Below, one piece after another: positions 397 to 54,800 of a stretch of DNA of 64,000 nucleotides (position 1 is the stretch's first letter; every line of letters begins with the position of its first letter). The notes below the pieces were generated by a model, which saw only the letters and a program-made list of their open reading frames with translations, was not told where the DNA came from and did not search any database. Position numbers and translations under genes: made by a program. Source of the DNA: Tribonema minus (Eukaryota; Sar; Xanthophyceae; Tribonematales; Tribonemataceae); NCBI GenBank assembly GCA_017506865.1, contig JAFCMP010000423.1:186001-250000 (forward strand), read 5' to 3'.

Positions 397-3300
397 GGCC
401 CAACTGGCCTGGGCGCTGCCAGCTGGTCATCCGAGGAAGCGCTGCGCGGCTACTTTGCGGCTCGCGAGGCAAAGAACGGTCCAAAAAACGGTCCAAGAAA
501 ACCAGCATCTCTGAAGGACCGGGAAGCATCGTCACCAATGCGGGCGAGATCTCTGTCGCCGCAGCGGCTGGGGTTTGGGAAGGGGGAGCCGAAGGGGGGG
601 GCGGGGGGCGGGGGGCCTGTGAAACGCGCACAAATACTGTATATACAGATGGAGTACTGCGAGGATACGCTCAGGGGGGTTATGGACGTGGGGCAGCTAT
701 GGCAGCAGCCCACAGAGGTATGTATGTGTGCATATAATGTTGAGGTTGTAGCTGAGCGTTGTTGCGTGCTCTTGTGGTAGCAGCTGTGGCGGCAGCCCAC
801 AGAGGTATGTATGTATGTTTGGGGTTATAGCTGAGCGTTGACGCGTGCTCTTGTTGCAGCAGCATGGCAGCAGCCCACAGAGGAATGTGTACATGCACGC
901 ATGACATTGCGTGTATGTTGAGGGGTATAGTTGAGCACTGCTGCATGGTCTTGTTGCAGCAGCGGCCGCTGCCAGCCACAGACGCGAGTTGTCGCGAGGG
1001 CGGCTTATCATGGCTTTATGCACAAGAACACTCCTAATGAGAAGTATATTTCATAGGGTAGCTATCTGAAAGTCTCCTGTCGAGTGGTAGTGAACCAGAC
1101 GCATGGTCAGGAGCCAGCGAAGGCGAGGGCTTGGGCCGCATTCTGCCATATGTTCCTTCCCCCAGCGGTCATCACACCACAACGCCCTCCCTTGCTTGTG
1201 CCTGATTCTAGACACACCAATACCAATACCATCGTTAGCGTTCCATATAACAGTTGTTGGGCTTTGTCGGTGCTTGGTGCAGGTGTGGCGGCTCTTCCGC
1301 CAGATTGTGAATGCCATGCAGTTCATTCACAGAAAAGGAATCGTGCACCGCGACATGAAGCCGCCGAATATTTTCCTCAACGAGGGGAATGTGAAGGTGA
1401 GACGCCCTGTTTTCAAGTGTTCCAGAGGTTTGATCTCACTGTACTTTAAATGTACTATGCTGGACTGTGCTTTACTGGGACAAACTGGACCCATTATTTC
1501 ATGTACTGAATCGAACTGCAGTCGATGGTGTGAGCATAGGGCACCGAGGGGGGCGGCACTTCCCCTTTCTCAAGAGTTGAAGTTATGAGCTGTACAGGCG
1601 CATAGTGTTTGTCACTTGCAAACGTCTGGGGTCTTTGCGATGACTTTGACTCGACTCTGACTCTGACGACTCGTGCAGGTCGGAGACTTTGGCCTGGCTA
1701 CAATGACGCAGGGCACTGAGAGACCCAGCAGTGCTCCGACGGGTGGCGCAGAGGGCTTTCTCGCTTCCGCCAATGGCAATACCAGCCTTTCGCCGTGCCC
1801 GCCGACATGGCGCAAAGGGCTGGCTAGCAGCGGCGCGGGAGATGGCTCCTTATATAGCGACCTTGAGGTGGCCGGGTCCAGCATGAGTGCAGGTAAGGTA
1901 CCTTGCAGTTCACAGGTGTATTCTCAGAGTTACAATGTGCATACACGTAGCTCATCTGAACGCTCAATGTGCATTCATGAAACTCATGGCGTCTTTTTGA
2001 TGTCATGGCATCGTCGGCGCCAACGTGGTGCGCAGCGCGTTGTGTGAGCCGACCATGCAAGCCGCAGTTGGCCACCCCATGTCTCGTAGAGACAGATATT
2101 GGCGCTCTGTGCTTTGACCCTCATCATGCGGCGAAATTACGGCCGCAATATGGTAGCTGTGTATGTAGGTATGTCTGTGGCACTGAGCACTGCTTCCGCA
2201 GCCTAAAGCGCGCGCAAGGCATCCATGGCAGTGCTTGCTATTCATGTGGCAACATTCAGGAATTCAGATTGCCCGCACTGCTGTACTTCCTGCTTCCTGC
2301 TACTGCGGGTGTGTACCGACTACGCAGTTGCATGGGTATGAATACATTCATTCATAAAGCCTCAGCATTTGGTCGATGACCACGCGGTTTCAGTTCAACC
2401 TTTGAGTACAGGCTTGTATGGATTGGATATAGCTGGCGTTGCTCGAACATTTTACGCATTGTGGCCACAAAAGGCCTTGAAGGAAGGCAGGCTACCCAGT
2501 ATTCCTCAACACTGCTAATTGTGACGTTGCACAGGCGTCGGCACTCTGTACTACCGCGCGCCGGAGCAGGAGCTGAGGGGGAAGTACGACGGAAAAGCAG
2601 GCAAGTCACCGTGGAAGCATTGTGCTGCTTAATTCGATGTGGTACTTCAAGCACGTGACATAATGATTGTGCCACGCTCATGTCAGAACGGGTGAATGAG
2701 CTGGGCAGCTGAGGTTGCAGAGTTTCTATGGTACCATGTCACGGGTACAACATACAATATGCGGGAGATGCCATTTGGCGATGTCGGTGAGGAGTCGTGA
2801 GCAATTGTGACACTTTGTCATAAGGTGCATGAAGACTGGACAGCAAGCGTAGCCCTTAGACATGATGACAAGAGTTGATGCAGCACAACATACATCATCA
2901 GGAAGCTGATACAAAATGGCATGCTGTGCTGCCGCAGCATTGGACAGTGCACAGCAAGCCCATGCTTGATGCTTATGATCTCATATCATCGTCAACATGT
3001 GATCTCTGACATGATCATGTCATCATCCTTCCATCATGTCATCATCCTTTCAAGTACCAATGATCAACTGTGATCTCATAACTTCGCATATGACATCATT
3101 GCATGTCAGGCAGCCCATGCTTGCATGCTCATCGAATCATCATCAATGCGTGATCTCATACACACCGCTGACATCACATCATTTGTTTATTATCACCCTT
3201 CTGTTTCCCAGACATGTGGTCCCTCGGCGTCATCCTCTTTGAGATGCTGAGCCCCCCCTTCACCACCCTCATGGAGCGTGCGGAAGTCATGATCGCGCTG

Positions 3301-51869: not shown

Positions 51870-54800
51870 ATGGATCCAGCCATGCGTCTCGGCATGGCGG
51901 ACGATGATAGTGGTAAGTTTGCATCGTTCTGTTGCTAACGTACACTATATGCTGTTGATGCTATGCTTTGGCACCTGCAAATCATCTGCACAGCTCATTC
52001 AGTTTGCTGGAACAGCACTTATTGTTGCAAACAGTTGCCACAAACTTTGACGATGTGGAGCAAACTTGAACGCTTGATAAATTTCGAAGTTTGTTACGAA
52101 ATGGCAGCACTTAGTGTATAATTTTAGCATGATAGCACAGATGTGCGTTTGGCAGTGCGTACCATATGCAGCCGGTTGCTGACAGTCTGCAGATCGTGCT
52201 TCTGCATTCTACTGCAACAATGTCAACAGTTTGCGCGTCTCAGCCGACCTCACTTTCATAATAGCACAAGTCTTGTGCTGTATTCGCTTCCAGATGGACC
52301 TGTCGATGATCCTCTTCCAGTTGCTGGGCCGTTCACACCGGCTACCCCTTTGGTTGACAGGAGCACAGTGACAGCGGAAGAAAGGTGGGGCTGCCGCCGT
52401 GTACCGTGTATCAGTGACCAGGTTCACTGATATAATCACGTAAACATGAAACCACTGGCACGTGTCCTTTTTGTGTGCATTGCTCCGCTAAGTAGCAGTT
52501 GCTCTATTATCAGTAGGACAGTGGATGAGATTTGGTATTTGATGGGGTTGACTGCGGCGCTGACCCATAACATCATGACTGCATGCACAATGACATGCAT
52601 CCGCACAGGCTTAATAGCAGCAAGAGAGCACTCCATACCATGTTGGCAGTGCGGACTAATCTGATACCATTTGCAATTGCAAATACATGGAACCAACAGT
52701 GTGCCAAAAAACTACTGGACGTATACAGACACTTGAAACGTCACTGCTGCGGTCAGTCTGGCCACCAAACAGTATACATACATCTGTTGCGCCACAAGCA
52801 CCGCAGTGGTTGTTTAGGCCACAGCGGCCGACTGTTGTTTGCCAGCGCCTGACAGATGTACAAATGCTGTAGTGGTCAATCATTAGCAAATCATACATGT
52901 GGAGAGGCATGTACATTGCTCCGTGATCATCTTCCACCCAATAGGAAAATGAAATGTCAGTGATTGCGGATGGTGAACAAGGGGCCCGGTGCGGTGACAC
53001 GAACAGCCTGCACTGGCTTTCCATCAATTTTTTGATGCTCCTGCACTAAACTCCGGGTTTTTTGTGCCTGTATGCTCCACTTTGCTACACAGCAATAATG
53101 TGCGCATCTTTCTTCGGGTCAGGGGCGGCGATTATGCAGCCGGGTGTGCACTGGAGGCAAGTGGAGGTTCACAAGATGAGCTCTACACACTGTCAGCACT
53201 GTGTCTCAATGCTGCTGTTCATTTGTGTCCTCAGTGGTAGTGGTGATATGCCTTCAAGTTGTCTTACACCCTGTGCACAAGGTCTGTGCCTGCGCCTGCT
53301 GAAGATGTGCGTAGTCTTTCTGCTCTCTCTAGCCTGTCGAGTTGGCACAGGTTGCATCACTATCACATGGTATTTGGCCTGCTGTGGTTGCCTCAGTCGT
53401 GCCCCACGTCAATGTTTTTGCTCAGCGATGCCACATGGAAAAGGAGTGTCACTGCCTTTCTTCCATCAACTAATTCCACATTTGTGACACGACTTACAAA
53501 CAAGGGCACTGCTAAGCCTGCTGGCGACATGGCTGCTGTTGTTGAAGCACCATGATGATGCTCTCACGTTCACACTGGTGACGCGCTTGTGGCGCGCAGG
53601 TGATGGACGAACGCACTGTGAACGAATCCCACATTGGTGACATGACTAACAAATAGGGGAATGCTGTTGCTGAAACATCGTGATGCTTCTCTCACATTTG
53701 CACTGGTGACCCGCTTGTGGCACGCAGGTGATGGACGAGCGCACCGTTGTGGCCATTACACGTAAGCAAGGTGCCACTGCGGTCAAAGCCCCCCGCGACG
53801 GCAACGCTCAGCAGGTGAGTTACTCACCAGCCCCAACTCTGTAGACCTAGAAGTATATTAAACTGCTCTAGGAGACTTGCGCCTCGTCTTTGCTCCTTGT
53901 CGCTCACACTGTTTGCAATAAGCATGACTCTCTCTGCACCACCACCACCACTGCACAGCCGGTCATCCAGGCAAATTCCCTCAGGTAGTTTGCACTGCTT
54001 GAGGAACTTCCTGTAATGCTGTTCATGGTGCTAAATGTGGTATAGTGTGCAACGAGCCTGGCTCCACGCTGACTAGTAGTATGTTGTTGCAGAACCAATG
54101 CGTCTCCAGCTACCATGTGTATGCTGCCACTGTAACAATGGATAATAACAATGCGAGCCACTCCCACTATGCACTGCTGGTTTGCACCATGCGCCATCCT
54201 TGGTTGAAAGCCTTGTCCAATTGTTGATGTTGTGGTCGCGTGCTGCTCTTTGACTGCCTTTACGACTTGCAGGAAATTCCTACACAGCACACAAAGTACA
54301 GGTTTAATGTGGTACTGGGACCAGCGACGACCCAACAAGAGGTGCGTCAGTGGTGCCCGAAGCACAAAAGAGTCACAACACTCAGTAATCTGTAACTGAT
54401 GCAGCCCACTTTCTTGCAAGTCGGCTACATGCACCTTTTAGTCAAATCTGAAACAGCTTCAACCCAGGTTATTTTGATTAAGACTGTAAAGGATCATGAC
54501 TGCGGCTTTGTGCCTTTGGTGGCTGCTTCCGATCGTGCATGCCATGTTTGAGAAGTGAGAATTACTCAGAAAGTTTGTGCACATGATTAGCCTACCCCTG
54601 TGCCGATTTGACAGCCAGCATCGCATGCAATGTAATCGTGCGCTGCAATTGGCCAGGGGCAACTGAGAGCAAATGAGTGCAAGCGCGCAATTGACGACTG
54701 CGTGCGCACATGTGCATAATTACATGTCACTGACAAATCTTCTGCTTCACAGGTATATAGATGTTTCCGCATGCTTGCCTGCAGCCGCCGGAAGCTGACA

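Follow-up and report, generated by a model that had tools for sequence, protein, structure and literature searches.

The 64-kb window analysed here is part of the Tribonema minus contig JAFCMP010000423.1, and all counts given below refer to it. It carries genes for GCN2, an aureochrome, clathrin heavy chain and a likely kinesin, and introns in this window contain what we call echoes, that is, partial same-strand copies of an exon edge together with its splice site, located within the adjoining intron. The clathrin heavy chain gene was modelled by spliced alignment with a human clathrin as reference and then cleaned up by discarding a 15-base piece, joining two pieces into one and placing the start of the exon at 28001–28066 by hand. 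It shows an unbroken reading frame of 29 exons and 1746 codons plus one stop, so the exons do join in frame, as stated in a preliminary description of this DNA, which had counted 28 exons and 1741 residues. The GCN2 exons from 637 to 8410 are credible and the later ones less so; junctions past 8.4 kb were assigned by eye, and one of the 12 repeat families of the GCN2 region (10099–10221) was left without a junction assignment. The top Protein Data Bank match of the exon at 22063 is aureochrome-1, a protein indicative of photosynthetic stramenopiles. A kinesin gene is likely present on the plus strand, judging by a spliced alignment and by a Pfam match that is weak and does not reach the curated cut-off. 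The junction test matched each edge, cut to at most 70 bp on the exon side and 10 bp on the intron side, to its own intron and to 200 shuffles, so that the lowest reachable P was 0.005. The junction sets were trimmed by eye, leaving 7 of 20 aligned exons for kinesin and, after merging, 9 exons from 24 for GCN2 and 6 from 8 for aureochrome.

The exon-edge echoes are real. The preliminary description, which proposed comparing the window with itself and the splice sites with shuffled introns, had placed the copies in gene orientation throughout, and local direct repeats indeed vastly outnumber inverted ones. Self-comparison at a score of at least 25 gave 88 same-strand and 3 inverted pairs less than 1600 bp apart, and 4 direct and 7 inverted pairs at more than 1600 bp. 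Likewise, among 6394 sliding 60-bp windows, 885 had a local match with a score of at least 24 on the same strand, and 10 had one on the opposite strand. The junction test finds, at P 0.005, an own-intron same-strand copy at 23 of 56 clathrin splice sites and, where GCN2 is mapped, at 7 of 16; the corresponding opposite-strand counts are 1/56 and 0/16. Together, 30 of 72 junctions are echoed when compared with shuffled introns. The clathrin acceptor 35227, one of the 23, reaches P 0.010 on the opposite strand too, and its signal may be low complexity. The copies also keep to one side of the exon: at a score of at least 20, clathrin edges matched their own intron in 21/56 cases, the intron on the wrong side in 1/54, and other introns in 3 of 1512 edge-by-intron tests, which agrees with the earlier statement that donor copies lie downstream and acceptor copies upstream. 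Weak or decayed echoes, sought by the junction test in the remaining clathrin introns, are few. With about five further junctions judged from sequence (near 9692, 12440, 12604, 14022 and 53727) added to the 30 from the junction test, the claim of more than 25 echoed splice sites is borne out, whereas the claim that nearly every junction is echoed is not, as the proportion is about 40% in clathrin and GCN2 and far lower in the two other genes.

Specifically, the share of echoed 60-bp windows is 22.5% in clathrin, 19.1% in 0–12.9 kb (GCN2), 8.5% in 12.9–19.7 kb, 2.9% in 19.7–25.6 kb (aureochrome and flank), 4.3% in 49.35–54 kb and 1.0% in 54–64 kb (kinesin). In the junction test, 2 of 10 aureochrome junctions are echoed, both weakly and one of them out of register, and kinesin gave 0/12 on either strand; the kinesin model is weak, and its 0/12 carries less weight than the 1.0% of echoed windows. 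Echoes had been described across all four genes; this stands for clathrin and GCN2, is not confirmed for kinesin and is left with two weak cases in aureochrome. The difference between clathrin plus GCN2 (30/72) and aureochrome plus kinesin (2/22) has a P value of 0.0045 in a Fisher test. Lower exon conservation and the weak kinesin model could contribute to this difference, and a gene-specific echo rate is possible. Two further duplications were observed in this part of the window. A near-perfect 75-bp (25-codon) tandem duplication at 24520–24670 lies downstream of the aureochrome LOV exons and is overlapped by the last, doubtful exon of the aureochrome alignment, and a head-to-tail 48-bp duplication at 55148–55243 lies just within a modelled kinesin intron, the junction of which it does not span.

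The clathrin gene contains 13 donor and 9 acceptor junction families (Table 1), spread over 17 of its 28 introns, with 2 to 6 copies per family. The nearest-copy spacing of the echoes, those of GCN2 included, ranges from 65 to 321 bp. The sequence between the exon copies is also homologous in 17 of the 22 families (at least one copy with z of at least 4), although in arrays this comparison can take in other copies; families 28493, 33229, 35337, 42873 and 43413 have no such homology at this threshold. When the spacing is used as the unit length, hand-entered values give 58–140 bp of intron and 23–53 bp of exon per unit in 9/9 acceptor families, as would be expected if a working acceptor cannot lose its branch point and tract. 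Taken by each family's largest offset, the junction-family spans sum to an estimated 5988 of 18487 clathrin intron bases (32%), or 6456 (35%) when four further intronic repeats are added. The direct orientation, the homology between copies in 17/22 families and the roughly 6.0 of 18.5 kb of intron support the earlier proposal of local duplication over exon-intron borders that lengthens introns. The AGGT arrangement of intron gain in the Rogers model, a route that the same description mentioned as recognised, is not observed: 94 bp or more separate the end of the farthest echo from the acceptor in 13/13 clathrin donor families, the intron ends themselves not having been searched for short repeats. 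When echoes are subtracted, echo-bearing clathrin introns have a median length of 306 bp, compared with 605 bp in echo-free introns (Mann-Whitney P 0.004). The two classes show no difference in total length, a hint of a preferred intron length.

The decay of the copies was followed by codon position. Among the 44 clathrin high-scoring segment pairs (HSPs) touching an exon, exon and echo mismatch at 72/653 (11.0%), 60/656 (9.1%) and 126/658 (19.1%) columns for positions 1, 2 and 3, respectively, and intron columns of the same HSPs mismatch at 752/2896 (26.0%). This order is in line with a free echo, a constrained exon and drift of the intron parts on both sides, and the echoes decay roughly as free DNA. 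Splice dinucleotides are retained in 37 of 45 aligned clathrin and GCN2 echoes, comprising donor GT in 21/27, with one further echo copying a real GC, and acceptor AG in 16/18; this is near the 0.8 that we would expect if the echoes decayed freely by some 10% per site. In-frame stops and indels are present in some copies, and 16 of 45 echo spacings, about one third, are divisible by three. The copies had been described as decayed, with stops and lost splice sites; the stops are there, together with indels, but lost splice sites are a minority. The suggestion, made at the same time, that splice sites move to fresh copies finds no support: the exon-nearest copy is the one with the intact frame and the conserved sequence, and the echoes decay roughly freely. 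One result departs from the prediction of plain neutrality, namely that between non-exonic copies exon-derived columns differ at 218/1406 (15.5%) and intron-derived columns at 1238/5008 (24.7%), the latter class also including real-intron versus echo-intron columns. Composition, alignment bias or some conversion could be behind this slower exon-derived divergence. Separately, we observed that the donor of the GCN2 kinase exon 3395–3499 is GC instead of GT in the model, and that its echo retains this GC.

Repeat families that span a junction predominate in both genes. In clathrin they make up 22/26 at a score of at least 25, 22/28 at 22 and 19/23 at 30, and in the GCN2 region 11/12 by inspection. 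The meta-profile of echoed windows peaks at the splice sites, with 0.43 at donor position 0 and 0.14 at +40, and with 0.32 at acceptor position 0 and 0.07 at -40. With exons masked, 5 of 21 clusters abut a junction as scored by script, and 15 of 21 were assigned to junction families when families were traced by hand. The GC content is 0.624 in exons versus 0.497 in introns.

Starting from the observed orientation and side, the homology between copies in most families and the roughly neutral decay, we consider it fairly probable that the echoes are debris of recurrent small local duplications, that is, ordinary mutation seen through purifying selection. Duplications of mostly about 60–200 bp, in direct orientation, would arise in genes under strong purifying selection. 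Those within an exon would be removed by selection, and those within an intron would be tolerated, but both of their copies would drift and soon become unrecognisable. A duplication across a splice site would also be tolerated, with splicing staying at the exon-nearest copy and the other copy turning intronic, which necessarily puts the echoes of donors downstream and those of acceptors upstream. With its exon copy held by selection, such a pair would, according to simulation, stay recognisable about 1.3–1.6 times longer than a wholly intronic pair, which would make borders look special. Some pairs would have been amplified to arrays of 3–6 copies. Either fill-in of staggered breaks or backward slippage may have produced the duplications, in some cases with a spacer or followed by a deletion, and most events would be old. 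An age simulation without any targeting yields a junction share of 0.65–0.75 at t 0.20 and of 0.90–0.95 at t 0.25, because wholly intronic pairs have faded by then. A reading in which duplication is wholly junction-targeted was dropped after this simulation, as old events behind a conserved exon can give the same share. Exon-to-echo gene conversion, also tried in simulation, hardly raised the junction share (0.35–0.48 versus 0.33 without).

Several results weigh against ordinary duplication plus selection. In neutral simulations, which combined uniform placement with selection against exon damage and used the same repeat search as for the real gene, the mean junction share is 0.29–0.48 with present or residual intron lengths and 0.55 with 300-bp introns, and the highest single neutral run, with the 150–200 bp introns and the biased runs excluded, reached 0.62 versus the observed 22/26. 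The ages that would give the observed share are also costly, as 40–62% of junction events remain detectable at t 0.20 and 19–43% at t 0.25, and the measured divergences lead us to infer a t near 0.10–0.17, or about 0.2 if exon-derived echo sequence decays at 0.6 of the rate; slower divergence of such sequence was indeed observed (15.5% versus 24.7%). At similar exon mismatch, the simulated intron-column mismatch is 12–18%, versus 26% observed. Clathrin has nine spaced single-HSP junction families, versus neutral-simulation means of 1.3–3.7, and in GCN2 the pairs 3448/3589 and 7866/8187 are near-identical along about 60 bp and have non-homologous sequence between them, a pattern that tandem duplication and decay alone do not give. 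Duplication with filler, local copying or later deletion are possible origins of such spaced non-homologous pairs. The junction share and the nine spaced families favour a hotspot or short ancestral introns. In the former case, breaks, nicks or template switches would favour exon-intron borders, with their GC-rich exon and paused transcription, and edges of about 30–90 bp would be copied into the intron far oftener than random intron, sometimes with an unrelated spacer. The junction-spanning families, the sharp meta-profile peaks, the 15/21 masked clusters (by hand assignment, 5/21 by script), the spaced near-identical pairs and the GC difference are all consistent with it, and a simulated 8-fold junction bias lifts the share to 0.69–0.76. 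However, the detection bias of old duplications can yield the same share, pairs away from junctions (24520, 46274 and 55148) are among the few very similar ones, and neither a mechanism nor a shared motif was found; a count of the recurring motif GTTGAAGTT gave no lead. We regard such border targeting as a doubtful explanation, and we are similarly hesitant about the broader statement that, in this lineage, conserved genes have duplication hotspots at their exon-intron borders, where edges of about 30–90 bp that include the splice site are copied several-fold above random intron DNA, donor edges to the downstream and acceptor edges to the upstream side. The junction excess is suggestive, not decisive.

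The alternative that introns were once short, about 150 bp, so that any duplication of about 130 bp touched a border and duplications helped to lengthen introns, seems to us rather unlikely. It is favoured by simulated junction shares of 0.83–0.85 with 150-bp and 0.70 with 200-bp introns, and by the shorter residual length of echo-bearing introns reported above, but 11 of 28 clathrin introns are echo-free with a median of 605 bp, weak decayed echoes are few, and genes simulated from 150-bp introns reach about 14 kb versus the real 23.7 kb. Functional decoy or alternative splice sites under selection would fit the retention of GT or AG in 37/45 echoes and the lower divergence of their exon-derived parts. 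Nevertheless, free decay accounts for the retention rate and for the roughly 10% of mismatches at the first two codon positions, in-frame stops and indels occur in some copies, and 16/45 spacings, about one third, are multiples of three, which makes selected decoys very improbable. Least credible of all is an assembly artefact or intron gain via mobile introners. A single sequence is all that underlies the counts, yet the copies differ mostly by 5–35% and have unique sequence in between, which argues against an artefact. As for introner elements, these echoes differ from them in having no sequence common to introns, given the 3/1512 matches of clathrin edges to other clathrin introns and the 4 direct and 7 inverted distant pairs.

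The kind of event is already known; among the matches listed in our literature searches, we found no published report of such echo density. In a potato RdRp gene, a tandem duplication over an intron-exon border has been described (Ma, Lan and Niu 2016, PMC4974935). The echoes resemble this case in that a local duplication extends over an acceptor border, so that the putative branch site, the tract and the AG are all duplicated. In potato, however, the extra copy forms a new exon and intron, whereas here it lies inside the old intron, and in two genes about 40% of the borders tested have such copies. In the Rogers model, as told in PMC4974935, an intron is gained when exon sequence containing a proto-splice site is duplicated, and cases of intron gain through tandem duplication are documented in Drosophila (PMC2891723). 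Both share with the echoes a duplication involving exon sequence and splice signals, but the echoes sit inside existing introns, whereas the Rogers model places the copies at the two ends of a newly gained intron. In rice, small tandem duplications that arise through break repair are enriched at 50–200 bp (PMC7971508), and Pol alpha-primase and CST provide a break-repair route to them (PMC8355091). These have the direct orientation of the echoes, but they are recent or induced, whereas the echoes are mostly diverged, lie at borders and in part have unrelated spacers. Short direct repeats near intron splice sites (Rogers and Bendich 2025, PMC11782384) are 4–30 bp long and pair the two intron ends; the echoes are likewise direct and near exon-intron borders, but are longer exon-edge copies within the intron. 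Two scans of viral contigs for relatives found none.

The echoes show directly the source of about one third of clathrin intron DNA. They also offer a natural test of splice-site choice, with dozens of splice-site copies, most of them with GT or AG, beside the real ones. If borders were true hotspots, a link between transcription or splicing and local duplication would follow, exon edges would be a main source of new intron DNA, and intact decoys would surround the real splice sites.

Table 1 Positions of the clathrin gene, of echoed junctions with their copies, and of two intronic duplications for contrast.
Feature	Position	Strand	Basis
GCN2 donor 717, echoes at +87 and +165	693..982	+	
GCN2 donor 3499, echo at +141, 61 consecutive identical bp, non-homologous spacer	3448..3660	+	
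GCN2 donor 4370, echo at +198	4327..4576	+	
GCN2 acceptor 5669, several echoes upstream	5164..5725	+	
GCN2 donor 6009, echo at +115	5955..6133	+	
GCN2 acceptor 6890, echoes at -184 and -374	6476..6931	+	
GCN2 acceptor 8194, echo at -321, 97% over 60 bp	7714..8246	+	
Probable GCN2 acceptor near 9692, echoes upstream	9319..9740	+	junction by inspection
Probable GCN2 acceptor near 12440 and donor near 12604, echoes	12220..12916	+	junctions by inspection
Modelled GCN2 donor 14022, echoes at about +118, +210, +328	13942..14426	+	
Clathrin heavy chain gene	25621..49348	+	spliced alignment, 29 exons
Clathrin donor 27549, echo	27497..27712	+	
Clathrin donor 28493, echo	28476..28662	+	
Clathrin acceptor 29853, two echoes upstream	29560..29905	+	
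Clathrin acceptor 30767, echo	30631..30791	+	
Clathrin donor 31132, three echoes, nearest identical at 86/88 exon bases	31045..31635	+	
Clathrin acceptor 32691, echo	32572..32717	+	
Clathrin acceptor 33229, echo	33077..33262	+	
Clathrin donor 33369, four echoes	33295..34112	+	
Clathrin donor 35337, echo	35271..35576	+	
Contrast case, tandem duplication wholly intronic	35918..36105	+	
Clathrin donor 37456, two echoes	37372..37704	+	
Clathrin donor 38541, echo	38502..38747	+	
Clathrin acceptor 39426, echo array upstream	39000..39460	+	
Clathrin acceptor 40275, two echoes upstream	39844..40325	+	
Clathrin donor 41084, two echoes	41069..41306	+	
Clathrin acceptor 42667, two echoes upstream	42157..42715	+	
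Clathrin donor 42873, echo, non-homologous spacer	42836..43016	+	
Clathrin acceptor 43280, two echoes upstream	43057..43302	+	
Clathrin donor 43413, two echoes	43354..43656	+	
Clathrin donor 43985, two echoes	43975..44166	+	
Clathrin acceptor 44513, echo upstream	44235..44544	+	
Clathrin donor 44653, five echoes	44589..45158	+	
Contrast case, tandem duplication wholly intronic, 62-bp unit	46274..46429	+	
Clathrin donor 47728, four echoes	47637..48351	+	
Probable acceptor near 53727, echo upstream, gene not resolved	53534..53747	+	by inspection

Other repeats were observed in the window. Self-complementary stretches occur in clathrin introns at 48178–48266, 41371–41396 and 39106–39149, and these three are the only local inverted repeats with a score of at least 20 in the exon-masked clathrin gene. 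The minus strand has one uninterrupted open frame at 17387–19672, which encodes 762 residues and contains pentatricopeptide repeats. Self-matches at 105-nt spacing in 18104–18885 fit 35-residue repeats rather than echoes. Finally, a run of 27 C lies at 63716–63742.

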